Below are positions 26,317-59,253 of a DNA stretch of 64,000 nucleotides, piece after piece. The position numbers and the translations under genes are program-made. The stretch spans positions 1-64,000 of the forward strand of contig JAGVQJ010000048.1 of the NCBI GenBank assembly GCA_020051775.1, given 5' to 3'. The notes below the pieces were generated by a model. The model did not search any database. It was given only the letters and a program-made list of their open reading frames with translations, and was not told the DNA's origin. The stretch comes from Calditrichota bacterium. GTDB lineage: Bacteria > Electryoneota > B3-LCP. The first letter of the stretch is position 1, and each line of letters opens with the position of its first letter.

Positions 26317-26322
26317 GAATTC

Positions 26323-27159: not shown

Positions 27160-27167
27160 GAGATAGC

Positions 27168-27827
27168 ATGTCCGTTCACCTGCAACGGGAAATCGAAAAA
27201 TTAAAACGGAAAGTTCTGACCATGAGCGCGATGGTTCAGGACACTATCACCGAAGCGGTTCGGGCCTTAAAGGAACGAGATGCTCGGTTGGCGGAAAAGG
27301 TCATTGAGTCAGACAACCAGATTGATCATCTGGAATTGGACATTGAGGAGGATTGTCTAAAGATCCTGGCTCTATACAATCCGGTAGCTACGGATCTTCG
27401 CTTCGTTATTACCGTCCTCAAGATCAACAACGACCTGGAACGCATGGCCGATTTGGCGGTGAATATTGCCGAAAGATCCAAATATCTGGCCGTGCAACGA
27501 AATATCAAGATCCCAGCAGAACTATCCGAGTCAGCGGAAATCGTCCAGCAGATGCTGAAGGATACCCTGACCGCCTTAATTCAGGAAAATCCGTTGTTAG
27601 CTCGTGAGGTCATACAGCAAGACAACGCGGTTGACGACATTCACCGCCGGATGTACTTTCTGGTGCAGAACAGTATGCGCGAGCATCTCGATCAGATCGA
27701 ATGCCAAATCAGCCTGCTGACCGTGTCACGCAACTTAGAGCGCATTGCCGACCAGATCACCAATATTGCCGAGGATGTCATTTATCTCGTTGAAGGGCAC
27801 CTGGTTCGGCATGGTGGCCTCCTATAA
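27168..27827 (+). CDS. phoU: Phosphate transport system regulatory protein PhoU
   Basis: VTDLRFVITVLKINNDLERMADLAVNIAER; SRNLERIADQITNIAEDVIYLVEG. Confidence 0.97.
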   Translation: MSVHLQREIEKLKRKVLTMSAMVQDTITEAVRALKERDARLAEKVIESDNQIDHLELDIEEDCLKILALYNPVATDLRFVITVLKINNDLERMADLAVNIAERSKYLAVQRNIKIPAELSESAEIVQQMLKDTLTALIQENPLLAREVIQQDNAVDDIHRRMYFLVQNSMREHLDQIECQISLLTVSRNLERIADQITNIAEDVIYLVEGHLVRHGGLL

Positions 27828-30730: not shown

Positions 30731-30755
30731 AAGGGCGCCGCGCAGGACGCCCTCA
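30731..30755 (-). terminator. Intrinsic terminator of cytochrome operon
   Basis: Minus strand GAGGGCGTCCTGCGCGGCGCCCTTTTTT. Confidence 0.8.
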
Positions 30756-30774: not shown

Positions 30775-32013
30775 TTATTTACCTTTATGACACTGCACGC
30801 ACAGTTCGCGATTGCCTTCTAAAGGTAGTAAAGGATTGGCTTTGGCAAGGTGAATCTGGTGGCAACTGATACAGGTCATGGGTTTCTGGGTGCGGGGATC
30901 CACGGCGCCGGAACCCAAGGGGTGGGTAATCTGGTGTTGATGCTTATGGCAATTGCTGCACAGAGCAATAGATTCATCTGCCAGAAACCGTTCCTGATCG
31001 GAGCCATGCGGAACGTGGCAAGAGGTGCAATTCTGGTCGCCGTGTGGAGACCCTTTATAATCTTCTGTGAAGCCCGTCACAGTCCCATGGCAGCCGAAAC
31101 AGAGTGACTTTTGATCCGTCTTCAGCAGCGGAGCATCGCCGGCTGCATGAGGATTGTGGCAGGTCGTACATTCATTCTTATCCGGCGGCACATGGCGATA
31201 CAGTGACGTGTAACTCTGAGCAATCTCCTTATGGCAACTCTGACACAAATCGTTCATTTTTCCTTTCAGTGCGAAACCCTTTCCCTGTGCTGATTGCAGG
31301 TTGCTGTGGCAAGCCTGGCAGTTGTTGGCGGCGAAGGGATTGTGCTGCATGGGCATAAGAAGACCCTTGCTCTTGGAGCCATGTGGGTTGTGGCACGCGG
31401 TGCAGTTCGCGCCGCGTAAGTCGTAACCTTTATGTACGGTGGAAAAGCGAGTATCAATTTTGTGGCAACTCGAGCAAAGTGTGTAGACGTCCTTCTTCGT
31501 CAAGTCGTCGTGTTCCGAACTATGGGCGTCGTGGCAAGTTGTGCATGATCCGTTGATCATCGGATCATGCTTAACAGGGCTGGACAACCAACCCTTAGCC
31601 TGTTCATGGCAACTGATGCAGACCTCTCGGATCGGCGCGCGGAGCTGATCGGCATACTGCGAGGCGTGAGCGTCATGACAACTCAGGCATTCCCCCTTGG
31701 CCACCGGATCGTGAACCACGGGTTTGTCCAGCTTGGCGGCTTCTTCGGAATGGCAACCATAACACACGTTTTTTGTTTCATCTTGCAGCAGCGCGTTGTG
31801 CCGGGCAGCGTGAGGATTGTGGCACTGCGAGCATTTTCCGTCGGTTTTCAGCGGAGTATGCACATGCTTGCTGCTCAGAGTCTGCTTGAAGGTATCGTGG
31901 CATTGCAGACAGACCTGCGGCTCATTCACCTGCACCTGCGAAAAGGCTGAAGTTACGAGCAGCCAGGTGGCGGCCAAAAGAGAGGCACCGATATGTTGAA
32001 GCGTTTTGGTCAT
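30775..32013 (-). CDS. Multiheme c-type cytochrome, doubled CXXCH family, 16 CXXCH motifs
   Basis: Start refined to ATG at 32013 (MTKTLQHIGASLLAATWLLVTSAFSQ signal peptide, ATGA overlap with upstream gene); 16 CXXCH counted by eye. Confidence 0.93.
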   Translation of the reverse strand: MTKTLQHIGASLLAATWLLVTSAFSQVQVNEPQVCLQCHDTFKQTLSSKHVHTPLKTDGKCSQCHNPHAARHNALLQDETKNVCYGCHSEEAAKLDKPVVHDPVAKGECLSCHDAHASQYADQLRAPIREVCISCHEQAKGWLSSPVKHDPMINGSCTTCHDAHSSEHDDLTKKDVYTLCSSCHKIDTRFSTVHKGYDLRGANCTACHNPHGSKSKGLLMPMQHNPFAANNCQACHSNLQSAQGKGFALKGKMNDLCQSCHKEIAQSYTSLYRHVPPDKNECTTCHNPHAAGDAPLLKTDQKSLCFGCHGTVTGFTEDYKGSPHGDQNCTSCHVPHGSDQERFLADESIALCSNCHKHQHQITHPLGSGAVDPRTQKPMTCISCHQIHLAKANPLLPLEGNRELCVQCHKGK

Positions 32014-34031
32014 TTCGAACCCTTGATTTCCTGATTTTGACCCGGATGGCATGATTGACAATCGCGCTCGGCAAAGGGAGCGTGCATTTGCGGCCCCATT
32101 AATCCCTCGCCGGGGGATGAATGTGGATCGTGGCACCCGGTACAGTTCAGATTCGCGCCGCTTAATCCCAAATGGCTGGATTTAAACTTCGCCTCCTCCC
32201 CATCGTGACAGCTCAGGCACATTGCGGGCATTTCCTTCCGCGCTAAGGCAGCCGTCTGCGTATAATGCGGCGCATGACAATCCAGACACAACCCTTCCGC
32301 CGCAGGATAGTGGGCCTTGTCGGTCTTCAAGGGGCCGGCGATTTCCTTATGACAGGTCAAGCACAGGTTTTTCGGCTGATCCAGTAATAAACTCGGATTG
32401 GCGCTGTTGTGGGGGGCGTGGCAACTGCCGCAGTCCCCAGATACAAAAGGCTGATGAGTGGTCGTGGCGGTTTTAAGTCCCACGGCCAAGTCACTGTGGC
32501 AGGAGGCACAGAGTTCGGATTTTGGCGCAGTCAAAAGATTGGCAAATTGACCAGCATGGGATTTATGGCAGCTTTGACAATCTTTATCCACGAAGGGGGC
32601 ATGATGCGAGATTTGGTCGGGCGCATTCAACATGTCGTTATGGCAGGAAACACACAATTCGCCTTGAGGCAGTTTCAGCAATTTGGCATTGTTTCCCTGA
32701 TGCGGTTCATGGCAATCGGCGCATTTTCCGGAATAAACCGGAGTGTGAATGTAAGCTTGATCGTAATCTTTCTTGGCGTCGGCGTGACAACCAAAGCAGA
32801 GATCGTCGGTCTTTGCGGTCAACAACTTCTTCTGAGGACTACCATGCGGGGTATGGCAATCGGTACAAGAGCCCTCCACAAAGGCGGCATGCTTGACGGG
32901 GGCTTCGGTTCCGCCAATGAGGTCGGTATGGCACTTGAGGCAGAGCTCGCGAGTTGAAACCGTCAGAAGCTTCTTGTCAGTCTGACCGTGCGCGATATGA
33001 CAATTGGCGCACGATTCAGCGGCGGGCGCATGTTTGACGGCATTGTTCAACTGCTCGCCAACGTCGGAATGACACTCCTGACACAGTTGGCGATCGGGCG
33101 CTTTCAATAACGCTTTTTGAGCCGAACTATGGGGTTGATGACAAGACAAACACTCACCTTGCGCCACCGGTGGGTGCGTACCCGACGGAGCCACCTGGGA
33201 TTGTTCATGACAACTATAACATAACTCTCCAGCCGTCGCGGCGATGGTAAAGTCGTTACCCTGGCCCGGCGCCGGGTGGCAAGCCTCACAGTTGCCTTCA
33301 GCCAGCGGCGCGTGAACTGATTGGCCCAGCAGTTTGTCATCAGACGAAGTATGCGGCTGATGACAGACCGTACAGCTTTTTTCCGCCACGGGATAATTGC
33401 GGTGCGCCTTAGTGAATGAAGCCGTGCCGGTTTCGTGGCACTTACGACAAAGGTCCTTTTGTTCGACCGTTAACAGATGCTCATGATCGCCACCGTGTAC
33501 GTCGTGGCAAGCCCAACAAGATTCCTTGATCTTGGAATGCCCCTTATTCTGCGTAAACTGGGTTTGTTCATGGCAACCGAAGCAGAGCTCTTCGGCGCTA
33601 CTCTTCAGCAGCATCCCGCTGTTCGAGGCGTGAGGATCGTGACATTTGAGGCATTGACCCTTCTGAGCCGGGTCATGCTGAAACTTCCCAGACAAGCCTA
33701 ACGATTCGGGTTTGTGGCAACCCACGCACAGTTCGGTTTCCGGTTTCTGCAAGCGCAACGCGCCGACTTTGCCATGAGGTTTATGACAGACGCCGCATTC
33801 ACCCTTTTCGACCGGTTGATGCAGGTTTTTACCCGGGAATTTACTCAATTCATGACAACCGGTACAATCGCCTTTGCCGGAAAAAAGTTGACCTTTCTTC
33901 ACTTGCGCAGAACCAGGATCAGACCACAGTACCGTTAAGGCTAAACCGGCCAGTATCAATATCGCGATAACAGTTCCTCCGCGTCGTGTCCGATTCTGTT
34001 GGCCGAGGAATCCTTTTAATGCACGAAGCAT
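32010..34031 (-). CDS. Multiheme c-type cytochrome, doubled CXXCH family, 26 CXXCH motifs
   Basis: TM/signal peptide; tandem CxxCHxPHxS...LL...LCxxCH units; 26 CXXCH counted by eye. Confidence 0.94.
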   Translation of the reverse strand: MLRALKGFLGQQNRTRRGGTVIAILILAGLALTVLWSDPGSAQVKKGQLFSGKGDCTGCHELSKFPGKNLHQPVEKGECGVCHKPHGKVGALRLQKPETELCVGCHKPESLGLSGKFQHDPAQKGQCLKCHDPHASNSGMLLKSSAEELCFGCHEQTQFTQNKGHSKIKESCWACHDVHGGDHEHLLTVEQKDLCRKCHETGTASFTKAHRNYPVAEKSCTVCHQPHTSSDDKLLGQSVHAPLAEGNCEACHPAPGQGNDFTIAATAGELCYSCHEQSQVAPSGTHPPVAQGECLSCHQPHSSAQKALLKAPDRQLCQECHSDVGEQLNNAVKHAPAAESCANCHIAHGQTDKKLLTVSTRELCLKCHTDLIGGTEAPVKHAAFVEGSCTDCHTPHGSPQKKLLTAKTDDLCFGCHADAKKDYDQAYIHTPVYSGKCADCHEPHQGNNAKLLKLPQGELCVSCHNDMLNAPDQISHHAPFVDKDCQSCHKSHAGQFANLLTAPKSELCASCHSDLAVGLKTATTTHQPFVSGDCGSCHAPHNSANPSLLLDQPKNLCLTCHKEIAGPLKTDKAHYPAAEGLCLDCHAPHYTQTAALARKEMPAMCLSCHDGEEAKFKSSHLGLSGANLNCTGCHDPHSSPGEGLMGPQMHAPFAERDCQSCHPGQNQEIKGSK

Positions 34032-34035
34032 GGGA

Positions 34036-35694
34036 TTATTTACCTCTTATGGCGCTGAATTGCAGCGCTTTCAGCGCTTCATGATTGATAGTGATTTTCG
34101 ATCCGGTATTAAGTTGCTCCAAGACGTCTTTTAAAATCCGATCAAACTCCATCTGCTTCAAGCTCTCCTGCACGGCGCCGCGGACTTGCGACAATGGTAG
34201 CGGTTCGCCGGGTTTGCGATCCGTTAACTTGATCAGCATGTACCCATCCAGGTTTTGGTAGGGACCTGTCACGACGCCGATACTCAGTGTATCCAGAACC
34301 TTACGCAATGATTCTGGAAATTCAACCAACTTGAGCCATCCACGGTCACCCGATTTCCCGGCATAACGATCAGTAGAACAGCTCCGAACCATCCAGGTGA
34401 AATCAGCGCCGGCATTCAACCGGGCTAATACACGGTCGGCGCTATCTTGATCTGCCACAGTTAACTGGCTTATTTTAACCTCACCCGAGGAATGGTAATA
34501 ATCTCGATGTGCTTGGAAAAAAGTATCCTCCATGACCGGTGTGATGACAACCTGTGGAGTGACCGTCTTGGACAAATAATCCATCACCAGTAGAGAATCG
34601 GAGTAGGCCTCCGTTTTCCATTTTACTCGTTCATTGTCTGTAATGTATCCTCTTGAAATCACCTCTCTTTGGAAAAGTCGGTGATTGATCATTTCCTTCA
34701 GCACGCTAAATTTCATCGGATTCAGCATTTCAGGACTGCGGCTCACTGCGCTATGCAATATCTTGTGGCGGAGCTGAGTAAGCGTGATGGTGGAATCCCC
34801 CACCGAAGCCAGCACCCAACCGGAATCCGAAGCGCTGTAGGCGCTCGTATCGGTAATGACGGCAGCCAAATTCAGCAAACTGTCATTGACAACCACGCCA
34901 AATTTTGATTTCAACGAGGCGATAAACTCCTCATGGACAGTGTCTAAAAGCTGCCGTTGCAATGTGGTTAGAATCCGGCCACGGAAAATACCCAATTCCG
35001 AGGTATCGGCCGGCTGCGAAGCCAGTAACCTGAAAATCGCGAAACCATCGCGGTAGGGAAAGGGGCCGCGCAATTCTCCAACCCGAGCAGAATCAACCTG
35101 GGGTCGCAGAAATTCGTTCAATTCGAGCCAGTACCGCAGCCCCTTATCACCGCCCCCGAGGCGGTATTGATCCCCGGCATATTGTGCGGCGATGTCCTCC
35201 AGTTTTGCTCCGGCCTTTAAAGCCCGTAGCGAGCTATCGGCTTGGGATTTCTGGTTCAGAATAACCAGATAAATATGAAATTTTCGGAATTGTTTCGCGA
35301 AAGTTTCGCTTATCTCCCCCTCGGTGATGGGGATGCTGTCCGGAAGATTCTCGCGCAGTAACAGTTCGACGGCGGCATTCAGCTTAAATTTCTCGATTCG
35401 CGCTTTGTAGCCGGGTTCCTGATTTAAGCCCATAGCGACAGCATCCTGGACCATCAGTCGTTCATTGATCAAGCGTTCCAAAAGCTTTTCAACGTCGAAA
35501 CTTGTGCGACTTGTGTCATGTTCGCCGCTATGAATGCGACCCAATTCTCTTGAAAAGGCGCGTGCGAAAATAGTGTCGCCATCAACAATGGCCAAAGCGG
35601 TTGATTCGATATTATCGCGAGCCGGGACAGACTGCGTTAAAAGCAGCAAAACTCCGACGACAACATATATTTGCTTAGGATGATTTATGAGCAT
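34036..35694 (-). CDS. Parvulin/SurA-type peptidylprolyl isomerase with two PpiC-like domains
   Basis: IAAQYAGDQYRLGGGDKGLRYWLELNEFLRPQVDSARVGELRGPFPYRDGFAIFRLL and SCSTDRYAGKSGDRGWLKLVEFPESLRKVLDTLSIGVVTGPYQNLDGYMLIKLTDR. Confidence 0.88.
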   Translation of the reverse strand: MLINHPKQIYVVVGVLLLLTQSVPARDNIESTALAIVDGDTIFARAFSRELGRIHSGEHDTSRTSFDVEKLLERLINERLMVQDAVAMGLNQEPGYKARIEKFKLNAAVELLLRENLPDSIPITEGEISETFAKQFRKFHIYLVILNQKSQADSSLRALKAGAKLEDIAAQYAGDQYRLGGGDKGLRYWLELNEFLRPQVDSARVGELRGPFPYRDGFAIFRLLASQPADTSELGIFRGRILTTLQRQLLDTVHEEFIASLKSKFGVVVNDSLLNLAAVITDTSAYSASDSGWVLASVGDSTITLTQLRHKILHSAVSRSPEMLNPMKFSVLKEMINHRLFQREVISRGYITDNERVKWKTEAYSDSLLVMDYLSKTVTPQVVITPVMEDTFFQAHRDYYHSSGEVKISQLTVADQDSADRVLARLNAGADFTWMVRSCSTDRYAGKSGDRGWLKLVEFPESLRKVLDTLSIGVVTGPYQNLDGYMLIKLTDRKPGEPLPLSQVRGAVQESLKQMEFDRILKDVLEQLNTGSKITINHEALKALQFSAIRGK

Positions 35695-35698
35695 ACGG

Positions 35699-36793
35699 TC
35701 ATTCTTCCGAGTGGTGCTGAGGTGAAGGTTGAAGCGTTTCAGGCGGCAAGGCGGAGACTAACTCCTTGAGCGATAGAGCCATCAACCGGGACGTTCCGTA
35801 TACCCGGCCGAGCTGGAAGATCTTGACGAAATCATCGCCGCGATGTTCCACCTGGCGAGCCCAGATCAACTGACCGCTCTCGGCCTTGAGCAACCGGAGA
35901 CTCACCTGTACTGTGGGTATGTCATTCTCTTCAAACTGATCCGTTTCTTGATAGCTCTCGGCCGCCCCAGTGAGGCAATAATCGGCGTCTAAGCTTTCCT
36001 GCAGGGTTTTCAAGGTGGCTAAATCTATCCCATCACGCGGAGCAATCCCAGAGGCAGAAAGTTGCTGGTTTAAAGCCCCGGGTTCAATCACCCGGTAGCC
36101 GCGCTGCATTAAAAGAGATACCAATATATTATCGGTCATTTGCCCTGCGGTAGTCAAAGAGCCGGTATACTCAAGGGGGATGACCATGATAGAGGATTTA
36201 GCCTTACTTTTACCCACGATTACTTGAGCATTAACGAACCACGCCATCCACCATTCACGCAGCTCCTGAATCATGTCATCTATCGCCAGCTCCGCCAAAC
36301 GGTCCGCGGAGGTAATAACTCCCAGGCCCAGCAATCCGGTATGATCCGCGCCAGTGGCGCTGCGAGTGGCGGCCCAAACAACCTCACCGGTGTAGCTGTT
36401 TAACAATCGAGCGGACAACCCAATTTCCGGTTGGTCACCTTTCCGATAACAATCAATGGAGCCTATCAAAATCCAGTTGGTACCGGTTTCGCGGCTGATT
36501 TCCTGGGCCTGTTGTTGGCTTAATTGTCCCGTGTCCCGCACACGATCGCGTCGCAGTAAATCCTGCAGAAGATCATCCTCTATCAGACCAAACCCCGCCG
36601 TAGTCAATCTCTCCCGGACTATGGGCATGAGATAGGTTTTAGCCTCCGCGTCAGACGTGACGTTGCGAAATGGGAGCGCTACCAATACGACCAGCGTCGT
36701 GTCGGCTTGATCCTGTGCGGCACTAGTGAGTGCGGACAGGAGCAGAATCACCACAAGACCGCATCCGGTCAATTTCGTCGCATGAAACCGCAT
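35699..36793 (-). CDS. Secreted protein with CsgG/FlgO-like repeats
   Basis: Two segments resembling TolB-N/CsgG folds (VALPFRNVTSD..., VIPLEYTGSLTTAGQ...). Confidence 0.55.
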   Translation of the reverse strand: MRFHATKLTGCGLVVILLLSALTSAAQDQADTTLVVLVALPFRNVTSDAEAKTYLMPIVRERLTTAGFGLIEDDLLQDLLRRDRVRDTGQLSQQQAQEISRETGTNWILIGSIDCYRKGDQPEIGLSARLLNSYTGEVVWAATRSATGADHTGLLGLGVITSADRLAELAIDDMIQELREWWMAWFVNAQVIVGKSKAKSSIMVIPLEYTGSLTTAGQMTDNILVSLLMQRGYRVIEPGALNQQLSASGIAPRDGIDLATLKTLQESLDADYCLTGAAESYQETDQFEENDIPTVQVSLRLLKAESGQLIWARQVEHRGDDFVKIFQLGRVYGTSRLMALSLKELVSALPPETLQPSPQHHSEE

Positions 36794-36808
36794 GAAATCC
36801 TGCCAGAA

Positions 36809-37387
36809 TTATTTGATCAGCGACTTTAAAACGTTGCGGGAGCATTCCCGCATCGTCTCGGCGTTGGATTTGGGTGAAAGTCCGAAGAGAGAAGCCATTA
36901 GACCAGGGCGACCATCGGTGCGTGTAGCGGACCAGACGGTCGCCCCGGTTTCGGTCTCCACCATACGCAGATCGAGTGTAACGGTATTGATGCTTATGCC
37001 CCCACTGCGGGTCGAACCCGATTCGCTGACACTACCGAAAATCAGAGCTTGAGCGCCCAAGCGCTTGCCTAAATCTTTGATTTGCTGCAAATCCAGACTG
37101 GGATTGCGAAGTGCGTTCATCTCGGACAAGGCTTTGGCAGTCTCGCCGGGTTCTATCACGATAAAAGTTTCACTGGCCAGCAGCTCGGTGAGGAAGGCCG
37201 TCGTGGCGTGCTTACCCGCCATCTGGGAAGCCGACAGGTTTTCAAAGGGAATGACCGCCACTTTTTCGACGTAACCGAAATTGAAGGAATGGTCCAGGAA
37301 GGCGTGTGAGCCCCCACAACTGGATATAAACAATAAAACCAGCAGCAACACTGCGAGTTGTACTCCAATGTGAGTTCGTGTCACCAT
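36809..37387 (-). CDS. CsgG/DUF799-like lipoprotein
   Basis: Lipobox LLFISSCGG; VEKVAVIPFENLSASQMAGKHAT; start refined to 37387. Confidence 0.65.
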   Translation of the reverse strand: MVTRTHIGVQLAVLLLVLLFISSCGGSHAFLDHSFNFGYVEKVAVIPFENLSASQMAGKHATTAFLTELLASETFIVIEPGETAKALSEMNALRNPSLDLQQIKDLGKRLGAQALIFGSVSESGSTRSGGISINTVTLDLRMVETETGATVWSATRTDGRPGLMASLFGLSPKSNAETMRECSRNVLKSLIK

Positions 37388-37397
37388 GATAGTACCT

Positions 37398-39515
37398 TTA
37401 GAAACTGGCATTCAGTCCCACCTGATAGGAGGAATTCTCCTCGGTTAGACCGTTGGTAATTTTATTATGAGAATATCCGGCAAAGCTGCTGACTCTATCG
37501 CTGATAAGGTAAGAGAGTTGCATGTTCAAGATTCGAGTACTATAATTTGATCCGAGGCTTCCGGTGTTGGTTTGAAAACGCAAATTGGCGCTGGTGGAAA
37601 TTTTTCGAGTCAAATCCCATCCGACGGAATAGTCCTGCGTAAGGCTCTCATTACCTTCCTCCTGCCCATAAGTAATGCCTCCTCGCAAGAAGAGTGCCGG
37701 AGTCATCCTGTAGTTAAAGCGCAGATCCGCTTCATCTCGATGGCCGTCCGGGTACAAATAATTGGACATATAGACTCGACGGGTTACCGTGCTGATCAGA
37801 TTCAAATTCTGATAAGGCGTGGCGTCGGCTGATAACCGGTAGGTCCAGCTGTCGGTAACGAGCGTAGAGGACGTTGTCGGCCGTTCGCTGCGTGAAAATC
37901 CGGTCTCAGTCAAGATGTTTAACCCGGGAATCAACACCGCCGACAGATGGAAAAGCGCCGAATGCGTCAATTGAGTTTGATCTTGATTCTGCCAGGATCT
38001 CAACCTCGATCCGGAGAGTGAGGTTTCCAAGGTTTTCAGCGGATTCAGCAAAAAGATCAGCGAATATAATTCTGTTTCGAGGGAGGTAACCAATCCCGTC
38101 CGATAATCTGTCAATCCGCGTTGATAGCGCCCTACGGAACTGAACTTGTCGTTGGGTCGGAAAGAAACCGTGCCCGAGACGTTGGCATCACGTCGTTGTT
38201 GCCCGGAAAGGTCCTCCACCTGCGACCCGAAAACCGCATCAGTGCTTAGCCGCCAATAGGAGTGCGCCTGGTAAGACAGACTGGCATTCACACGGTGATT
38301 CCGCGTCAGGTCTGGACCCAATCCCAGGATTTGATCGCTGATATAACCTTGAATTTCAGTAACGTAAACTTCCGGTTGCTCGTCCGTCGTGGTGTTGATG
38401 ACTTTAAAATAGCGGGCGGTGGTCGTAGGGAAACTTATCTCATAACGATGAAGTGGTCCGTTAAAAGTGGATAGTACGCCGCCGGCTTGAATCGTCCAGG
38501 CAAGATTATCGCCGCTGGTGTACACCGACCACGCCAGGGAAGGATCCGCGGTGCGATCAGTGTATAGGTAAATCACACTTAAGGTGCGCGCCAGAGAGAG
38601 ATCGAAGCCAATATTCTGGTGCAGAAAGGTGCCGCCGAGATTGATACCGGTAGATTGTTCCACGTTGCCGTCAATCAATGTCGCCAGCGTATCAAGAGGC
38701 CCCAAAGTGGGACTGGCATCCTGTTGGTAAAGCCCTATGACGGCAGGTATTTGTATAAACGGCATCACCGCCTGACTGGATTCCTGGCGACGGTGGGTAT
38801 AATTGAACATGTAATTACCGGCAAACAAAAGGCGGTTTTTAATCAAATTATTGGAATAATCCAACCTGAAAATATGCTGCTCCAGGTTTTGCGAGATTCC
38901 GCCGCTCAAATTATCGAACCGTTGATTAGTGTAAGTGTAATAGGAATTCGCATGCTTATAAGAATAATTGGCGGCATACTGAAATCGTCTCTCTTCATTA
39001 TCGGAAGGTAGTAGACCGGCGTTGATGGCGCTGTGACTCCAATCATACGACACAGTGCTTTGAGGAATGCGGCGATTGAAGGTGGTTTTAAAATAGATGC
39101 CGGCGCTACGACTTATCGTATTGTTCACGGTGGCACGATCCCGTATTTGACGATATCGCGCATGAACTCCCAAATTGAAGAAGGGATTAACCCAATTCAG
39201 ATTACCGGACGGCATCAATTCACCCTGCCAACCATTTGCTTCGGCAGTCTGAAAAGTTTGAATGTCATGGTAAGTCAAGGATAGATGTACGGAGATATAA
39301 GGCAAAAGTGAGCGGCTATAATTCATCATGTACTGCTGATCTAATGATCTAAGCCTCGAGGTATCCACTTCGGTATCCATTCCTAAAAAACGCGCGCTTC
39401 CATGCAGGTTGTTGAAGGCCGTTGCCTCCGGCGGACTCAGAGTCGTCCCCGCAAACATGATCAATATCAGGAAGGTTCTATGTACCAAACCCCATGTTTT
39501 CTGGAAATGTTTCAT
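37398..39515 (-). CDS. Large outer-membrane beta-barrel, candidate electron-conduit porin, with discoidin-like insertion
   Basis: 705 aa of alternating amphipathic strands ending in aromatic/Phe (SSYQVGLNASF); insert AWSVYTSGDNLAWTIQ...RYEISFPTTTARYFKVINTTTDEQPEVYVTEIQ resembles F5/8 type C. Confidence 0.75.
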   Translation of the reverse strand: MKHFQKTWGLVHRTFLILIMFAGTTLSPPEATAFNNLHGSARFLGMDTEVDTSRLRSLDQQYMMNYSRSLLPYISVHLSLTYHDIQTFQTAEANGWQGELMPSGNLNWVNPFFNLGVHARYRQIRDRATVNNTISRSAGIYFKTTFNRRIPQSTVSYDWSHSAINAGLLPSDNEERRFQYAANYSYKHANSYYTYTNQRFDNLSGGISQNLEQHIFRLDYSNNLIKNRLLFAGNYMFNYTHRRQESSQAVMPFIQIPAVIGLYQQDASPTLGPLDTLATLIDGNVEQSTGINLGGTFLHQNIGFDLSLARTLSVIYLYTDRTADPSLAWSVYTSGDNLAWTIQAGGVLSTFNGPLHRYEISFPTTTARYFKVINTTTDEQPEVYVTEIQGYISDQILGLGPDLTRNHRVNASLSYQAHSYWRLSTDAVFGSQVEDLSGQQRRDANVSGTVSFRPNDKFSSVGRYQRGLTDYRTGLVTSLETELYSLIFLLNPLKTLETSLSGSRLRSWQNQDQTQLTHSALFHLSAVLIPGLNILTETGFSRSERPTTSSTLVTDSWTYRLSADATPYQNLNLISTVTRRVYMSNYLYPDGHRDEADLRFNYRMTPALFLRGGITYGQEEGNESLTQDYSVGWDLTRKISTSANLRFQTNTGSLGSNYSTRILNMQLSYLISDRVSSFAGYSHNKITNGLTEENSSYQVGLNASF

Positions 39516-39532
39516 CAGCTCGCGTTAACCGA

Positions 39533-40945
39533 TTAGGGGAAGACAATGGCGCAAGGTTTCAGTCCCGTAGCAATCACGCCCTTGACTTGTCCCGCATTTC
39601 TGCCAATCAGACTGAGATTATTGGATTCGGAACAGACAACATACAGAAGTGCACCTTCAGGATCCAGAGCTAACCGCTTGGGGAAGGACTTCACTGCGAT
39701 CTGGTTTATATCCAAATTCAGCGCCAGTTTCAGTATGGCCACAAGGTTAAGGTTTTCGATAGAGCAATAGAGTGTACCGGCGCGAGCATCGCTGACCAGG
39801 TCATTAACGGAATGAGTGGTATTCAGCGTCCCGGAGACGGTGAAAGTCTCAGTATTAATCTGAGTGATAGTTCCAGAACCGTAATTGGCAACATAAAGCC
39901 TTTGGCCTGGCGCATCAAGCTCCAAGCTGACCGGATTAGATCCCACGGACAGGTTGCGCGGAGCCGCTGTCATGGTTGCGTTGAAGGCGGAAATGTCATC
40001 CGATAAGCTATTGGCCGTATAAACCCAGCCGCTGGCCGGATCAGCGACAATGTCGTTGGGGGCCGTACCCACGCTTATTTTATCGCGGCGACTGAAGTTG
40101 AAGGCATCAATAATGGAGACGCTGTTCGATCCGCGGTTGGCGGTAAAGAGCAGGCGTTCATCGCCGGACAGTGTCAGCGCGGAGGGCTCGTCGCCGAAAT
40201 CCAAGTCTATCAGCGCTCGAGGAATTCGCGTGTTCAACTCCAGAACCGAAACATTGTGAGACCCGGCATTGGCTACAAACAGTAGATTCCGTTTGACACT
40301 GACGGCTAAGCCGCGAGGTTTGGCACCGACTCGCACTATGCCAACTACCTCGCTACGAATGCGATCAATGACCGATAAGTTGTCGGATGCCTCATTGGCA
40401 ACAAATGCCAGGGCGGTAACCGGAGGGATTATTTTTTTCACCTGGCGAAAACGGCCGTAAGCGTTTGAATCTGCCAGGGGAGCCGACGTCCATTGTAAAA
40501 AAAGAGCCTTTGCCTGTCCTTGTTCTATGCTGACATTCAAGGGAAGCGAGATGATCCTGCGGGCGGAATCGGCGCTGTCGGCTTGGGTAACATGATTAGA
40601 GGCGAGAGAGAGGATTAAGGAATGGTACTGACCTGGGTCAACCAGGGATTCCGCCAATAGAATTTGTTGCTGGGAAAGTTCTTGCAGCTTGAGGCGGGGG
40701 GTAACCAGAGTAATTTCGTGAGAAGCGTATTCGCCTTGCAGTATCAGGCGTTCGAAGGTGAGAGTAGAATCGGAGTGAGTTGAGATTTTTTCGAGGTAAA
40801 TCGCGACTTGCCCGAACGACTCTTGGGCGCGAAGGCGCGGTGAACACGACCACAAGCTTAAAGTGATCAATAATAAGCAAAATTTTGCCGCCGCTGTAGC
40901 AAAGCAATGTCCGGTTTTCGACTTTTGATCCACGCGTGCTCTCAA
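39533..40945 (-). CDS. YVTN-family beta-propeller protein (possible lipoprotein)
   Basis: Repeats LAFVANEASDNLSVIDRI, LLFVANAGSHNVSVLEL, LLFTANRGSNSVSIIDAF, LYVANYGSGTITQINTE; exact start uncertain (TTG vs GTG at 40933). Confidence 0.88.
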   Translation of the reverse strand: MRARVDQKSKTGHCFATAAAKFCLLLITLSLWSCSPRLRAQESFGQVAIYLEKISTHSDSTLTFERLILQGEYASHEITLVTPRLKLQELSQQQILLAESLVDPGQYHSLILSLASNHVTQADSADSARRIISLPLNVSIEQGQAKALFLQWTSAPLADSNAYGRFRQVKKIIPPVTALAFVANEASDNLSVIDRIRSEVVGIVRVGAKPRGLAVSVKRNLLFVANAGSHNVSVLELNTRIPRALIDLDFGDEPSALTLSGDERLLFTANRGSNSVSIIDAFNFSRRDKISVGTAPNDIVADPASGWVYTANSLSDDISAFNATMTAAPRNLSVGSNPVSLELDAPGQRLYVANYGSGTITQINTETFTVSGTLNTTHSVNDLVSDARAGTLYCSIENLNLVAILKLALNLDINQIAVKSFPKRLALDPEGALLYVVCSESNNLSLIGRNAGQVKGVIATGLKPCAIVFP

Positions 40946-40961
40946 TTTATATTAAGCAGTG

Positions 40962-40995
40962 CAGGTCGGCGCCCGAAAATCTGGGCGCCGACCTG
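40962..40995 (-). terminator. Strong intercistronic hairpin downstream of OmcS-like gene
   Basis: 13-bp perfect stem CAGGTCGGCGCCC / GGGCGCCGACCTG, 8-nt loop, no strong T-run. Confidence 0.6.
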
Positions 40996-41044
40996 ACTGG
41001 AATGGGTACTATGACCGATCGCCATGTAGAAAGTAGATCGGGAT

Positions 41045-42124
41045 TTAAGGATTCAGTTCGTCGCCTTCATCCTTGTTGTGGCACTTGTTGCAGAGCGAGC
41101 GCTGATCGGCGCCTGACCCAGCGTACGGATTGGGCATAGCCCAAGAGCCGGATTCCACGCCTTCTTCAGACCACACGGTAATTTTGAAGTCCCAACGGCC
41201 AATGTCCGGGCCGGTGGTAGCGTGTGCACGGTGGCAAGTCAAGCACATGACTTTGGAATTGGCGGTCGGGCCGCCAGCCGAGGTGATGGTCATGGCCGGA
41301 TCTTCGAAGGGAACCATAGCCAGATAAGAGGCCGTGGGGTCGCCGCCGTTTTGATTGGCCGTACCAGCGTAGATGCCATAACGGGTGGCTTCTTCACCAG
41401 TCAGAGTAGATCCACTGGGGTGCAAGTTGTGTGTGGAGTTATGGAAATCCGCATGGCAATTGGAGCACCATTCGGACATACCGCCCTGATAAGCGGTGTG
41501 GTTGGCGTTGGATTCGGCTGAAGAGGTGCTGATGCCGGCAGCTTCCGGAGCCGGGTTGGTGAAGGTATACAGACCGTCCTGGATGGGACCGGTGGTGTTC
41601 AACAGGCGCATGTGTTCATTGCCATGCGGGTCGTGGCAACTGGTGCAGCCCAAGATGGAGGACGGGAAACTGCCGCCGGGGCCCATGGTGAAAGTGGGGT
41701 CAGCCGCCAGATTTTTACTCGGAGCAACGATGCTGTGACCGCCTTTGTAACCGGGGATGAAATTGGCGGTAAGGTGGCCGTTGTGGCCGTCATTCAGGTT
41801 ATCTTCCAACAAGAATACGAAATCGCCGGCGCCCTGTTCGGACTGGGGAGCCAACATGTTGGCAGACAGAACATAGCGGCCATTGGATGTTGTCCCTGTC
41901 TGCGTATGGCAAGACAGACAGACATCGCTGGGGGTTTCATCCTTCAACAGCCAGGAGTTTCCATTGGGGGCATTGGGATCAACCGGCTGACCATCTTGGC
42001 TGTTGTGCATCGTGTGGCATCCGCCACAATAAGCCACACCGCCATCGTGGAAGGCAAGAGCAATACCGCTTAATGATAAAGCCACGGCAATGCTCAGGGT
42101 ACCGACTAGTAATGCTTTACGCAT
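41045..42124 (-). CDS. OmcS-like hexaheme c-type cytochrome (candidate extracellular nanowire subunit)
   Basis: Signal peptide then AFHDGGVAYCGGCHTMHNS, CLSCH, GHSIVAP..LAADPTFTMGPGGSFPSSILGCTSCHDPHG, QGGMSEWCSNCHADFHNS, CLTCHRAHA, QRSLCNKCHNKDEGD; six CXXCH. Confidence 0.88.
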   Translation of the reverse strand: MRKALLVGTLSIAVALSLSGIALAFHDGGVAYCGGCHTMHNSQDGQPVDPNAPNGNSWLLKDETPSDVCLSCHTQTGTTSNGRYVLSANMLAPQSEQGAGDFVFLLEDNLNDGHNGHLTANFIPGYKGGHSIVAPSKNLAADPTFTMGPGGSFPSSILGCTSCHDPHGNEHMRLLNTTGPIQDGLYTFTNPAPEAAGISTSSAESNANHTAYQGGMSEWCSNCHADFHNSTHNLHPSGSTLTGEEATRYGIYAGTANQNGGDPTASYLAMVPFEDPAMTITSAGGPTANSKVMCLTCHRAHATTGPDIGRWDFKITVWSEEGVESGSWAMPNPYAGSGADQRSLCNKCHNKDEGDELNP

Positions 42125-42216
42125 GCTTTCCTCCTAAATCTCCATTCATGTTTGATCCTCCACAGATCGTTACCCCGGTGCGGTACAAAAGATGCTAACG
42201 TGTTGATTTGAAACTG

Positions 42217-43206
42217 CTATTCGTCCACGACGATGGTGCTTTCCATCTGCGATGGTGCGGATTCGACTTCTGCCGGAAGCTGCAGTACCTGTACCATGTT
42301 ATTGAATCCTTGCGTCACCCAGACACGGTTTCGAGCATCAACCATAATGTCAATTGGATGATAAAACCATCCTGGATCTTTGCCCATGCCGCCGAATTCG
42401 CCGTTGACTCTACCCGTGCTATCGTAGCTGACTACGGTGTGCCGGTGTTTATCCAAGACCAGCACGTTGTGGTTTAGGTCAGTTGAAACCGCCAGCGGGA
42501 AGGATAATTCGCCGTATCCTGCGCCGGACTGACCGACCACGGTGACCAATGAACCTTGAGTGTTGTAACAATAAACCGAGCCAAGCATGGGCAAAGGAAT
42601 GTAAATCAGGTCTCCATCCAGATGGATGGCGCCCAGCATCTGCTCGCGGCGAAGATTATCTTTCAAATCCTGGAAAATGGGGAACTCGTTTACGTAATCG
42701 CCGGATAAATTGCAGGTTATTATTCGACCACCTAATTCGTCTGTCAAAAACATCCGATCTTGATCCTTGATCACCAAACTGCCGATGGCCAGAGAATCGG
42801 AGTCAGGACCGCCCTGAATCACAAAGGGATATAGATAATCTCCATTATAATCAAAAACTTGAATAGAAGAACCGTTTACCAACATGCTCAGAATGTACAT
42901 CCGTCCTTGGTCATCAACGGCAATGTCTATGGGGGACTGCAACTTATCTTGGTTGGCGAATTCGAAAAGGTAGTTTCCTTGCGAATTTAAGATCACTACG
43001 CGGTTGTGGCCGGTATCAAGAAGATAGAACTCACCCGTGCGATGATCCTGACGCACTCGCCGGGGCTGGTCTAATTGCAGAGCCGTTTCCTCGGTTCCCA
43101 GCGCGAAAATAAACTTTGCCGATATTCTGGTGTAAGCATCCTGCCCCCAGGAAACTCCCATAGTGAGAAGCGTTACAAACAGAATAACAAGCGTCTTTCC
43201 GGCCAT
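42217..43206 (-). CDS. NHL-repeat beta-propeller protein
   Basis: FYLLDTGHNRVVILNSQGNYLFEF, VDDQGRMYIL, FGGMGKDPGWFYHPIDIMVDARNRVWVTQGFNNMVQVLQ. Confidence 0.9.
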   Translation of the reverse strand: MAGKTLVILFVTLLTMGVSWGQDAYTRISAKFIFALGTEETALQLDQPRRVRQDHRTGEFYLLDTGHNRVVILNSQGNYLFEFANQDKLQSPIDIAVDDQGRMYILSMLVNGSSIQVFDYNGDYLYPFVIQGGPDSDSLAIGSLVIKDQDRMFLTDELGGRIITCNLSGDYVNEFPIFQDLKDNLRREQMLGAIHLDGDLIYIPLPMLGSVYCYNTQGSLVTVVGQSGAGYGELSFPLAVSTDLNHNVLVLDKHRHTVVSYDSTGRVNGEFGGMGKDPGWFYHPIDIMVDARNRVWVTQGFNNMVQVLQLPAEVESAPSQMESTIVVDE

Positions 43207-43918: not shown

Positions 43919-44950
43919 ATGAAAATACTGAAAATACCCAAAAAGAAGTTAGATCTGTTCGCTTCGATCCTTCACCAAGGCTGGGAACTCCACGCGCCGG
44001 TCGAACAGAATGGAAAATTTGCGTTTAAACCGCTGGATCAATGGGCTCAGGCTCGTCTCGCTTATAATCGCACCCTTCTGGCTCCCAAAAAGTATTTTCT
44101 TCCTCCCCAAGAGGCGATGTTCGAGTATCGGAATCATGAGGGTTACGTTCCTTCCCGCGAAGGGCTGGATAAGCGGGTCATCCTGTTCGGCGTGCATTCC
44201 TGCGACATTTTCGCCATAAACATCCTGGATGAGGTGTTCGCCGGAAAATATCCCGATCCTTACTACCAGATCCGTCGTAAAAATACCGCCATCATCGGTG
44301 TAGACTGCGTGCCTGATGAATACTGCTTCTGTCGTTCCATGCGGGCTGATTTCGTGGATAAAGGATTCGATTTGTTCTTCAACGACATCGGCGATTATTA
44401 TCTAACCGCAGTAGGAACCAGTCTCGGTGATGACCTTGTTCTGGCCACTGCGCAGCTCTTCGAAGAGATCAACGATAAAGATATCGCCGAATACAAGCAC
44501 CGCTCGTCCGAAAAGCAAAAGGCCTTCAAACTGGATGTGGAAATTCGCGACCTGCTGGGGATCTTTGAGCTTGAATACGAAAGCCAGATCTGGGATGAGT
44601 TGGGCGACCGCTGCCTTTCTTGTGGGAGCTGCAGCATGGTCTGTCCCACCTGTTACTGCTTCGATGTGATGGATCACATCAAACTGGGATCCAAAGAGGG
44701 GTCAAGGGTGCGCACCTGGGATTCCTGCCTGTTCCACAGCCATGCGTTGGTCGCCGGTGGTGAAAATTTCCGCAAGGAAAGATCCAGCCGCATTAAACAT
44801 CGCTACTATCACAAACAGAGCGGTTTCGTCGCCGAATTCGGGCGCCCAAGTTGCGTGGGTTGTGGTCGCTGTATCGAAAGTTGCCCGGTGAAGATTGACA
44901 TAGTCGAGGTGCTAAATCGGTTGCGAGGTGAAGAACATGCCATATCCTGA
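43919..44950 (+). CDS. hydB: Group 3b-type [NiFe]-hydrogenase/sulfhydrogenase beta subunit (4Fe-4S)
   Basis: CLSCGSCSMVCPTCYCFDV and CVGCGRCIESCPVKIDIVEV; HSCDIFAINILDEVF. Confidence 0.92.
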   Translation: MKILKIPKKKLDLFASILHQGWELHAPVEQNGKFAFKPLDQWAQARLAYNRTLLAPKKYFLPPQEAMFEYRNHEGYVPSREGLDKRVILFGVHSCDIFAINILDEVFAGKYPDPYYQIRRKNTAIIGVDCVPDEYCFCRSMRADFVDKGFDLFFNDIGDYYLTAVGTSLGDDLVLATAQLFEEINDKDIAEYKHRSSEKQKAFKLDVEIRDLLGIFELEYESQIWDELGDRCLSCGSCSMVCPTCYCFDVMDHIKLGSKEGSRVRTWDSCLFHSHALVAGGENFRKERSSRIKHRYYHKQSGFVAEFGRPSCVGCGRCIESCPVKIDIVEVLNRLRGEEHAIS

Positions 44951-45809
44951 AGAACGACTTATAAATGATCCGGTTCAGACCGACAATCCTTACTGGCCGC
45001 AAATGGCTCGGATCGTGCGCATCTACAAGATGGTCCCGGACAACTATGTTTTCACTCTGCGCTTTACGGATCAGCGCCGGGCGGAACGATTCAAGCATAA
45101 ACCAGGGCAGTTTATCATGCTTTCGGTGCCGGGAGCAGGTGAAGCGCCGATTTCGATTTCTTCCTCTCCTACAAGGCCGGGAATGCTGGAATTATGCGTT
45201 CGCCGCGTCGGAAGGGTAACTGATGCCCTGTATCGCATGCAGACGAACGACCTGGTTGGCCTACGAGGTCCCTATGGCAATGGCTTTCCTGTTGAGAAGA
45301 TCGCTGGGAACGACCTACTGATTGTGGCTGGCGGGTTGGGTATGGCCCCGCTGCGATCGCTACTATGGTATGTCCTGGATAATCGCGACAGTTTTAAAAA
45401 AGTTACGCTGATGTATGGGGCTAAAACTCCCGCTGACATGCTTTACCGCGAGGAGCTGCAATCGCTGGTGGATCGCACTGACATGCGTTGTTTGTTGATT
45501 GTGGATAGGGATCCCACCGGCGCCTGGAAAAATCATGTGGGATTGTTGCCCACACTGTTTGACCATGTTGCCCTTGAACCGGCCAATACTTATGCTGCTG
45601 TGTGCGGTCCTCCGGTGGTCTACAAGTACATTCTGCAAAAGCTTCTTGGGTTGAACTTTTCCAAGGATCGCATTTTAATGTCCTTGGAGCGGCGCATGAA
45701 GTGCGGCGTAGGGAAATGCTCACATTGCAGTGTTGGCTACAAATACACATGCATACACGGCCCCATTTTCACCTATTGGGATGCCATTAATTTACCAGAG
45801 TTAGTATAG
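44937..45809 (+). CDS. hydG: Hydrogenase gamma subunit (FAD/NAD(P)-binding, C-terminal FeS)
   Basis: Flavin site and NAD(P)-binding GNDLLIVAGGLGMAPLRSL; MSLERRMKCGVGKCSHCSVGYKYTCIHGPIFTYWD; overlaps hydB. Confidence 0.92.
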   Translation: MPYPEERLINDPVQTDNPYWPQMARIVRIYKMVPDNYVFTLRFTDQRRAERFKHKPGQFIMLSVPGAGEAPISISSSPTRPGMLELCVRRVGRVTDALYRMQTNDLVGLRGPYGNGFPVEKIAGNDLLIVAGGLGMAPLRSLLWYVLDNRDSFKKVTLMYGAKTPADMLYREELQSLVDRTDMRCLLIVDRDPTGAWKNHVGLLPTLFDHVALEPANTYAAVCGPPVVYKYILQKLLGLNFSKDRILMSLERRMKCGVGKCSHCSVGYKYTCIHGPIFTYWDAINLPELV

Positions 45810-45811
45810 TT

Positions 45812-45837
45812 GTCAGGGTCGAGACGACCTCGACTAC
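45812..45837. repeat. REP-like hairpin between hydG and hydD
   Basis: GTCAGGGTCG AGA CGACCTCGAC TACA. Confidence 0.55.
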
Positions 45838-45855
45838 AAATTGAGGATAGTGATA

Positions 45856-46611
45856 ATGTCAAAACCTAAAATAGGTATATTCGGGCTTACCGGATGCGCC
45901 GGCGACCAGTTGGTCATTCTGAACTGCGAAGACCAGCTCTTGGATCTGGTGGCCGCTGTAGACATCCGGGATTTCCTCACGGCGACGTCAGCCAATGACA
46001 CAGAAAGTCGGTTGGATGTGGCCTTCGTGGAAGGCGCCGTATTAAGTAAGCGCGATGAGGAAACCTTGAAGAAAATCCGCGAACGTTCCGACGTTTTGGT
46101 CGCTTTGGGGACTTGCGCCGTATGGGGCGGCATTCCCGCCTTAGATCGCGGACGGGATCGCTTGGAACTCCTGCAAACCGTCTACGGGAACAAAGCAGAA
46201 CAATACGATACAATGCCCACCAAAGCCCTACATGAAGTGGTCAAGGTGGATTTGAATATCTCAGGCTGCCCGATTGAAAAGGAGCAATTTCTTTCGAGCG
46301 TGGCTGATTTGCTGAATGGCAATCCTCCACTGCTGCCCGATTATGCCGTGTGCGCCGAATGCAAGTGGAAGGAGAACAACTGCCTATTAATCGAGAAGGG
46401 CGAAGTGTGTTGTGGTCCCTTAACCATTGCCGGGTGCAAGGCACGTTGCCCGGAGTTAAATGTCGCTTGCGCAGGCTGCCGGGGGCCCGCAACAGACGCC
46501 AATGTCAAATCAGCAGTGGCTTTATTCCAGGAGAAAGGAATCTCTTTGACTGATGTAGCCGCCAAGTTCAGAACATTTGCTCCGGTGCAGATTACGGACA
46601 AGCCGGAATGA
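45856..46611 (+). CDS. hydD: [NiFe]-hydrogenase delta (small) subunit
   Basis: KPKIGIFGLTGCAGDQLVILNCED; LGTCAVWGGIPAL; ISGCPIEKEQFL; start refined to ATG 45856. Confidence 0.93.
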   Translation: MSKPKIGIFGLTGCAGDQLVILNCEDQLLDLVAAVDIRDFLTATSANDTESRLDVAFVEGAVLSKRDEETLKKIRERSDVLVALGTCAVWGGIPALDRGRDRLELLQTVYGNKAEQYDTMPTKALHEVVKVDLNISGCPIEKEQFLSSVADLLNGNPPLLPDYAVCAECKWKENNCLLIEKGEVCCGPLTIAGCKARCPELNVACAGCRGPATDANVKSAVALFQEKGISLTDVAAKFRTFAPVQITDKPE

Positions 46612-46667
46612 CAGGTTGGTCAGATTCCGGGCAAGCCGGAATGACCCCGTTCACCGGAATGACCCCG
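46599..46667. repeat. Direct repeat array (CAAGCCGGAATGAC-type), overlapping hydD stop codon
   Basis: CAAGCCGGAATGAC at 46599-46612 and 46632-46645; CACCGGAATGACCCCG at 46652-46667. Confidence 0.75.
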
Positions 46668-46684
46668 ATTAAATGGAGAAGAGC

Positions 46685-47971
46685 ATGACCAAAACTATAA
46701 AAATAGATCATCTGGCCCGAGTTGAAGGGCATGGCGGCATCACTGTAACGCTCGAAAATGGCAAGGTTGACCAGGTGCATTTCGACATTTTCGAAGGCGC
46801 TCGACTGATCGAAGCGCTGGTTGTGGGACGCCCCTGGGCGGACATTCCGCAAATCGTGTCGCGCATTTGCGCTATCTGCTCGGCAGCGCACAGTTTGACA
46901 GCCATCAAGGCCATCGAAAATGCTTTCGATCTGAAAGCGAGTCCGCAGACGCATACGCTCAGAGATCTGCTTTATCGAGGTGAAAGCATCGAAAGCCATG
47001 CCCTGCACGTCTTCCTGCTGGCGGCGCCGGACTACTTGAACTACCCCAGCGCCATTGCTCTGGCTGCGGATATGCCGGAGGCAGTCCAGTTGGGCCTTCG
47101 GTTGAAAAAACTGGGTAATACGATACAGGAAGTGATCGGGGGGCGGGCGGTGCATCCAGTCAATGCCCTCATCGGCGGGTTCGGCAAAACCCCCTCGTTC
47201 GAGCAATTGGTTGCCTTGCGCCGGGACTTGCAGCAGGGCGTGAAAGGCTGCGAAAGCATGATGGAGGTTTTAGCGACGCTGCCGGCGGCGGATTTTATTC
47301 ATGCGCCCACCATATATGCAGCGTTGGACACCGCGGGAGAATACGGTTACTATCATGGCACTGATATACGTACAACCAGCGGCAAGACCGTTCCGCGCAA
47401 CGATTATCGCAAATTGACCAACGAACAACCAGTCGCGCATTCTCATGCCAAGCACAGCCATTATGACCATCTGCCTTTCATGGTGGGGTCGTTGGCGAGG
47501 GTGACATTATTTGGGGATAAACTAAGCGACAAGGCCAAAGCCGCTATGGTGAAATTGGCATTGAAGACGCCATCAAATAATCCCATGGATAACAACAAGG
47601 CTCAGGCGGTGGAATTGCTGTATGACGTCGAGTATGCCCTTGAGTTGGTGGAAAAGTTGCTGCGTAACAAGATCAAACCGGAGGCGCCGCTTCCTGTCCT
47701 TGTCAAGGCCGGGACCGGCACAGCAGCTTCGGAAGCTCCGCGTGGGATACTCTTCCACAGTTATACATTCGATAAAACCGGTCATTGCACGGCGGCCGAC
47801 GTTATCACACCCACGGCGCAGAATTTGGCCTGCGCAGAATACCACTTCCGCGCTATGGTGGAACAAAATCCCCAAGCTGAAACGTCGGTGTTGAAGAAAC
47901 AACTGGAGATGATCGCCCGGGCTTACGATCCTTGCATCTCCTGTTCGGTGCATCTGGTGGAGAAAAGATGA
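46685..47971 (+). CDS. hydA: [NiFe]-hydrogenase alpha (large) subunit
   Basis: IDHLARVEGHGGITVTLE; RICAICSAAHSLTAIKAIE (L1); AYDPCISCSVHLVEKR (L2); start refined to 46685 behind GGAGAAG. Confidence 0.95.
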   Translation: MTKTIKIDHLARVEGHGGITVTLENGKVDQVHFDIFEGARLIEALVVGRPWADIPQIVSRICAICSAAHSLTAIKAIENAFDLKASPQTHTLRDLLYRGESIESHALHVFLLAAPDYLNYPSAIALAADMPEAVQLGLRLKKLGNTIQEVIGGRAVHPVNALIGGFGKTPSFEQLVALRRDLQQGVKGCESMMEVLATLPAADFIHAPTIYAALDTAGEYGYYHGTDIRTTSGKTVPRNDYRKLTNEQPVAHSHAKHSHYDHLPFMVGSLARVTLFGDKLSDKAKAAMVKLALKTPSNNPMDNNKAQAVELLYDVEYALELVEKLLRNKIKPEAPLPVLVKAGTGTAASEAPRGILFHSYTFDKTGHCTAADVITPTAQNLACAEYHFRAMVEQNPQAETSVLKKQLEMIARAYDPCISCSVHLVEKR

Positions 47972-48438
47972 ATTCGACTCTGATCATCGGGTTGGGCAAT
48001 ACCTTGATGGGTGACGAAGGGATCGGCAGTTATATCGCCGAAGCTCTGGCTCTTGATCCCCGGTTGCCTTCTCATGCGAAGGTCATTCAGGGAGGTACTG
48101 ATCTCCTGCGATTGGCCGATAAAATGGAAGGCTATGACCGGATTATCCTGGTTGACGCCATGCTTGATCCTGTCAATTCCGGTCGGCTTGAGATCATTGA
48201 AGAGGACTTTTCCCGGTTTAAGGATCAACAGGACGGCGCTCATCACCTTTCTGTTATACAAGCCGTTGCATTAATGCGCTTGTCTAACCCCGCTTTAAGC
48301 CAGACTCATATAACTCTGGCGCTGGTCGGCATCAACAGCGTAAAGCGAACTGGGAGTCTCTCCCCTGCGTTGCAGATTAAACTTCGGGAACTGGCGAATG
48401 AAATCATGGGATTATTCGCGCAGGAGGTGTTTGAGTAG
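47968..48438 (+). CDS. Hydrogenase maturation protease
   Basis: MNSTLIIGLGNTLMGDEGIGSYIAEAL; ATGA overlap with hydA. Confidence 0.93.
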   Translation: MNSTLIIGLGNTLMGDEGIGSYIAEALALDPRLPSHAKVIQGGTDLLRLADKMEGYDRIILVDAMLDPVNSGRLEIIEEDFSRFKDQQDGAHHLSVIQAVALMRLSNPALSQTHITLALVGINSVKRTGSLSPALQIKLRELANEIMGLFAQEVFE

Positions 48439-50500: not shown

Positions 50501-50518
50501 GGCATGCCTCCTTTATTG

Positions 50519-50546
50519 ATGACAAATCATAAATGACAAATGACGC
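50519..50546. repeat. Heptad tandem repeat
   Basis: ATGACAA/ATCATAA/ATGACAA/ATGACGC. Confidence 0.75.
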
Positions 50547-50561
50547 AGTCGATCGCGTGTG

Positions 50562-51824: not shown

Positions 51825-51867
51825 TACAATCCTCCTTGCATGTCAAATGACTACTTTAGTATTTGGC

Positions 51868-54563: not shown

Positions 54564-54804
54564 CCCCGGCTGGCAAACAGCCGCAACATGGCCATTAATA
54601 TAGTATTTTCCAGGTATGACCTAATTTAACAAGAAATAACCAGAAAGTCAAGGGAATTATTCCGGGGCATGAAAATTCCCCTGAGTTTACGCCTTGATCA
54701 TGCGATAAATCGCCCCCCCTAATAAAAAAAGCTTGACATCCATTGATTATTTTACTAAATTAATATAATTCTACCCCCTTCAATCAAACTTGGGAGATCG
54801 AGTC

Positions 54805-56883: not shown

Positions 56884-56885
56884 AA

Positions 56886-56917
56886 TAGTTGCTAGTCGCT
56901 GTTTGCTAGTTACTTGC
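56886..56917. repeat. Heptad tandem repeat
   Basis: TAGTTGC/TAGTCGC/TGTTTGC/TAGTTAC/TTGC. Confidence 0.75.
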
Positions 56918-56918
56918 A

Positions 56919-56939
56919 GGGGCGCACGGCGTGCGCCCC
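56919..56939. repeat. REP-like/terminator hairpin
   Basis: GGGGCGCAC GGC GTGCGCCCC followed by AATTTTT. Confidence 0.75.
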
Positions 56940-59248: not shown

Positions 59249-59253
59249 TCATA

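Follow-up and report, generated by a model that had tools for sequence, protein, structure and literature searches.

Solved structures of cytochrome nanowires come only from Geobacter and two archaea (PMC12954529), and in OmcS one of the heme ligands is supplied across the subunit interface (PMC9473688, PMC12307469). In G. sulfurreducens, an omcS-companion (osc) operon, GSU2501-GSU2493, has been described by Shen et al. 2025 (Cell Chem Biol 32:239), whose findings are relayed here through PMC12977616 and PMC13194489. There the eight genes downstream of the hexaheme cytochrome gene GSU2501 (oscC), a block spanning GSU2500-2493, are tied to the maturation and secretion of OmcS (PMC12977616), with folding assigned to OscH, secretion to OscE, OscF and OscG, and morphology to OscD (PMC13194489, citing Shen et al. 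2025). A need for osc in nanowire folding, secretion or morphology is known from G. sulfurreducens only (PMC12977616, PMC13194489). OscC is entered as periplasmic in one table and is not a known wire-forming protein (PMC13194489). The osc machinery has already been published as "widespread and ancient," and among open-licence papers we found no dedicated report on OmcS in several FCB phyla.

The window analyzed here, a stretch of 64,000 nucleotides from the contig JAGVQJ010000048.1 of a Calditrichota bacterium, contains a run of nine closely spaced minus-strand genes (43206..30775). The second of these (41045..42124, minus) encodes an OmcS-like secreted hexaheme c-type cytochrome that occupies the OscC position and is a candidate nanowire subunit. 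Its open reading frame, read from 42124 to 41045, begins with an ATG preceded at a distance of a few bases by AGGAGG, and specifies 359 amino acids with six CXXCH motifs, whose histidines are residues 37, 73, 164, 224, 298 and 349. The signal peptide ends ...IALA, leaving a predicted mature N-terminus, FHDGGV, that is the counterpart of FHSGGV in OmcS. A sequence-only reading of this DNA had described a secreted protein of this length with six heme motifs, and this description holds. The gene is the single OmcS-type hexaheme gene in the host genome.

Searches of Pfam and NCBIfam with the hexaheme protein return only doubled-CXXCH and weak decaheme domain matches, as would be expected if it were some unspecialized multiheme protein (NapC, c3 or DmsE-like) whose likeness to OmcS derives from CXXCH spacing alone. 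More specific comparisons make such an identity exceedingly improbable. When the protein was compared by phmmer with all PDB sequences, OmcS (6EF8/6NEF) was the only strong match (E=1.4e-37), and a profile built from ten relatives likewise recovered OmcS as the only strong match (E=1.1e-49); the two proteins are 39% identical over 320 aligned columns. Because multiheme proteins can match one another through their heme motifs alone, 200 control shuffles were prepared in which every CXXCH and every histidine was left in place. The best of these scored 14.8 bits against OmcS, compared with 132.5 bits for the real protein, and the other multiheme open reading frames tested from the host genome scored 7 bits or less. 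An AlphaFold monomer model of the hexaheme protein has low confidence (pLDDT 59, pTM 0.63, from an alignment of 36 homologues) and was used solely for the identity of its lone PDB match by Foldseek, which is OmcS (6ef8_A, E=4.7e-16, TM 0.63). These observations confirm, by sequence and by fold, that the 359-aa protein is a true, full-length OmcS homologue, with a predicted mature form of approximately 335 residues compared with 407 in OmcS. The sequence-only reading had proposed this homology, had called for sequence, profile and structural comparison with OmcS, and had named a generic NapC- or c3-like nearest family as the finding that would speak against it; the nearest family proved to be OmcS. 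A c3/NapC identity is refuted by the shuffle control together with the match of the surrounding operon, in which nine genes are syntenic with those of Geomonas.

The heme ligands of OmcS are conserved in the same order. An alignment of 36 homologues, which span several phyla, shows that the histidines of all six CXXCH motifs are invariant, as are six further histidines, H26, H40, H130, H167, H235 and H301, and all twelve align with histidines of OmcS. Specifically, H26, H40, H130, H167 and H301 correspond to H2, H16, H110, H147 and H335 of OmcS, whereas two nearby residues, H228 (in DFHNS) and H235 (in NLHPSG), align with H247 and H257, respectively. The histidine contexts listed in the sequence-only reading (AFHDGGV, TMHNS, GGHSIV, DPHG, DFHNS and RAHA) are all present and aligned with OmcS histidines, and five of the six distal ligands it assigned are invariant. 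The exception is H228, which is retained in 27 of the 36 homologues; since H235 is retained in all of them, H235 is probably the sixth distal ligand, and H228 was probably misassigned. We take H16 of OmcS to be the inter-subunit ligand, bound to heme 5 (at H332) in the adjacent subunit. The equivalents of this pair in the present protein are H40 and H298.

The genes surrounding the hexaheme gene, which the sequence-only reading had not noticed, strengthen the case for a filament, as they make up a full osc operon. In the following, osc names are given by gene order and protein type. The run opens with an NHL-repeat beta-propeller gene (42217..43206, minus; Pfam NHL, 2.1e-10), whose orthologues in relatives, and also in Geomonas, are found at the equivalent position. 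Downstream of the hexaheme gene lies a gene for an OscD-like beta-propeller of the YncE/lactonase type, identified by Pfam and NCBIfam and likely to be a lipoprotein (39533..40945, minus; 25% identity to Geomonas, E=6e-25), followed by an OscE-like outer-membrane barrel (37398..39515, minus), which is recognized from its AlphaFold model, Foldseek matches and Geomonas counterpart (E=7e-18). The next gene specifies an OscF-like lipoprotein with an LpoB/CsgG fold (36809..37411, minus), as judged from domain matches, a Geomonas match and co-occurrence, and it is followed by a gene for an OscG-like protein with GNA1162/LpoB/CsgG-like domains (35699..36793, minus), as judged from domain and Geomonas matches. 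An OscH-like peptidyl-prolyl isomerase chaperone of the SurA/PPIC type (34036..35694, minus; Pfam Rotamase_2, 8e-21; Geomonas E=9e-29) precedes two large cytochromes. These are an OscI-like 26-heme protein composed of 13 doubled CXXCH units (32010..34031, minus; 36% identity to Geomonas over 660 aa) and an OscJ-like 16-heme protein (30775..32013, minus), which is named from the Geomonas comparison. The start of OscJ has been reassigned from the sequence: the listed GTG open reading frame begins at 32136, and the likely start is the ATG at 32013, which overlaps the OscI stop codon as ATGA. Directly past the last gene is a terminator-like hairpin with a T-run (30731..30754, minus), a weak assignment, as such sites are no commoner here than in shuffled sequence.

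BLAST comparisons with Geomonas edaphica (L055) and with MAGs of Nitrospirota (L045), Krumholzibacteriota (L029) and Fibrobacteria (L028) reveal that gene order is shared as far as each contig reaches. In four loci (L055, L045, L028 and L040) the available sequence stops in or before the 16-heme gene, which is why the best match there to the 16-heme gene of the window is the 26-heme gene. The order hexaheme-OscD-OscE-OscF-OscG-OscH-26-heme-16-heme is that of the G. sulfurreducens operon and of the Geomonas loci L055, L046 and L050, and seven osc-type genes are thus collinear with the hexaheme gene. Judged by gene order and protein type, the cluster matches the published osc assembly operon, although outside the hexaheme gene its proteins are only 20-36% identical to their Geomonas counterparts. 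The cluster also differs from the Geobacter and Geomonas operons in having one hexaheme gene where those have two or three; it is headed by the NHL gene and resides in an FCB-type host. Similar operons are present in records from Krumholzibacteriota, Fibrobacterota, Acidobacteriota, Nitrospirota and Planctomycetota. In one MAG labelled Desulfosudis (L039), the cluster is arranged as two divergent halves, with the NHL, 16-heme, 26-heme and OscH genes on one strand and the NHL, hexaheme, OscD, OscE, OscF and OscG genes on the other.

The AlphaFold model of OscE is confident (pLDDT 87.5) and contains approximately 28 predicted long strands by manual count, along with an inserted F5/8-type-C-like beta domain that also occurs in homologues, some of which match F5/8 type C in Pfam. 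Its best PDB fold match by Foldseek is MtrB of the Mtr complex (6r2q_B). This raises the alternative of a porin-cytochrome conduit like MtrCAB, in which a large outer-membrane barrel is likewise encoded with multiheme cytochromes; OscE would then enclose a large multiheme cytochrome that conducts across the membrane, while the hexaheme protein would be a monomeric surface terminal that does not polymerize. The presence of 26- and 16-heme cytochromes in the same operon as the barrel fits such an arrangement. Moreover, the MtrB_PioB barrel family (PF11854) has no match in the host genome at E<=0.01, so that the osc cluster could fill the conduit role. The resemblance of OscE to MtrB is weak, however, at TM 0.40 and 7% identity, and hundreds of generic barrels match as well; the invariance of the H40 and H298 equivalents is what would be expected of an interface pair. 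Mtr operons are not known to contain counterparts of OscF, OscG and OscH, the secretion-type (CsgG/LpoB-like) and chaperone-type partners encoded here. On balance, we consider a conduit unlikely, although it is the strongest of the alternatives to a filament.

The phylogenetic position of the protein was examined with a tree of 35 hexaheme proteins, which groups it, with 100/100 support, with sequences of FCB-type bacteria, Calditrichota and Acidobacteriota. This clade lies outside the entire Desulfuromonadota/Nitrospirota radiation, which includes OmcS and the hexaheme genes adjoining OscD, and a topology test rejects placing the protein together with OmcS (AU p=0.002). An OmcS orthologue is thereby ruled out. 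The tree places the protein before the split of OscC, OmcS and OmcT, as a homologue of OmcS with the same anatomy. An RpoB tree, in which rows L034 and L035 represent wrong-frame open reading frames and are to be ignored, places the host among the members of its phylum and pairs that phylum with a Calditrichota MAG, with Krumholzibacteriota and Geomonas branching separately. The base composition, which is even across the window, gives no sign of recent import. The sequence-only reading had placed the host outside Desulfuromonadota and had proposed a wide phylogenetic extension of OmcS-like nanowires; the host assignment holds, but the extension is not new in kind, given the published breadth of osc and the operons in five other phyla. 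What this case contributes is a single-subunit version of a known system, whose deep clade lies outside the split between OmcS and OscC.

Among 39 genomes of the host phylum, seven carry an OmcS-like gene and six carry an OscF gene; all six are among those seven, and none of the 32 genomes without an OmcS-like gene has OscF. By random draw this co-occurrence has p ~2e-6, a value that is indicative, as the genomes are related. The OmcS-like gene of the seventh genome, together with extra copies in three others, represents paralogues situated away from the osc cluster. A second, osc-independent OmcS-like clade was also observed in this phylum (L016, L017, L018 and L024), with most of its open reading frames containing seven CXXCH motifs, and in L023 and L025 an osc-independent OmcS-like gene has a two-component system and genes for heme biosynthesis as neighbors. 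Chloroflexi/Anaerolineales records L095, L097 and L100 encode OmcS-like proteins with six to seven hemes, accompanied by an NHL gene in L095 and L100; L095 has a 1699-aa open reading frame with seven hemes. No OscE, OscF, OscG or OscH gene occurs within the available stretches of these three records, and their proteins possibly form filaments without outer-membrane machinery.

The position of the hexaheme gene directly before OscD, which is that of OscC (GSU2501), allows another function to be envisaged, namely that of an OscC-type periplasmic electron carrier or an assembly helper for another filament subunit. A sole hexaheme gene directly upstream of OscD is also the arrangement in Geobacteraceae that lack omcS. 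Up to three hexaheme genes can be present in operons of this type (L042), and OscC is listed as periplasmic and not known to form filaments (PMC13194489). In the present genome, a carrier or helper would leave an assembly system with no wire to assemble, as the operon encodes no other subunit and the genome no other OmcS-type protein. The protein also lacks none of the ligand pattern seen in OmcS. We therefore regard a carrier or helper role as quite improbable.

Filament, conduit and carrier or helper share the same anatomy. We consider it probable, from the sequence evidence assembled here, that the osc-type operon directs the assembly and export of an OmcS-type filament composed of the 359-aa cytochrome. 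The points in favor are OmcS as the only strong PDB match, the shuffle and in-genome controls, the twelve invariant histidines, the nine-gene collinearity, the roles assigned to the osc genes in Geobacter, the co-occurrence with OscF, and the further multiheme, cytochrome c assembly and c3-type genes of the genome. Against it stand the placement of the sequence outside the OmcS clade, the status of OscC as the closest positional Geobacter counterpart and not a known wire (PMC13194489), and the low confidence of the monomer model, which is uninformative on the subunit interface. Also counting against this reading, recent strain tests indicate that the reduction of Fe(III) oxide does not depend on OmcS itself (PMC11077965).

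From this evidence we infer polymerization, an export route and a direction of electron flow. The signal peptide would direct export of the 359-aa protein, which would acquire six bis-His c-type hemes and fold with the aid of the OscH isomerase-chaperone, and the OscE barrel and its lipoprotein/CsgG-like partners OscF and OscG would move it across the outer membrane. Outside the cell, H40 of one subunit would supply the remaining ligand of heme 5 (C294-x-x-C297-H298) in the following subunit, so that the subunits join head to tail and their hemes form an unbroken chain along the filament. Electrons would enter by way of the 26-heme OscI, the 16-heme OscJ and small periplasmic c3-type carriers, and would pass along the filament to acceptors outside the cell or to partner cells. 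The operon also suggests that filament-based extracellular electron transfer occurs in several little-studied, mostly uncultured phyla. It is also conceivable, though we advance it tentatively, that the FCB lineage retains an early-branching nanowire module in which one hexaheme protein, older than the duplications that gave rise to OmcS, OmcT and OscC, uses the same export machinery. If so, the osc operon would predate OmcS and would have been assembled originally around an OscC-like wire, and filaments with a distinct, shorter subunit would exist across FCB phyla. A single deep-branching subunit bears on the question, posed in PMC12977616, of whether osc evolved for an OscC-like ancestral wire or was later recruited for OmcS.

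The host genome contains many other multiheme genes and a cytochrome c assembly protein. It also encodes a tetraheme c3-type protein of 142 aa, a candidate periplasmic carrier. PF14522 has no match in any open reading frame shorter than 221 aa, and small triheme proteins of the PpcA type are accordingly not evident by this family. Beside the osc operon, and divergent from it, is a NiFe-hydrogenase cluster (43919-48438, plus) that encodes a Fer4 subunit, a FAD/NAD reductase subunit, the small and large subunits and a HycI protease, and its Fer4 gene also adjoins the NHL gene in a relative (G014, 75% identity). This proximity suggests that H2-linked electrons might feed the osc system. Elsewhere in the window lies a Pho regulon block (19493-27827, plus) that comprises a response regulator, a PhoR-type kinase, a porin, PstSCAB and PhoU. 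Many secreted proteins (9190-14354, 18121-19401 and 48563-63733) bear FCB-style C-terminal sorting tags of the form SGVY or SGLY with LLK or LVK endings.
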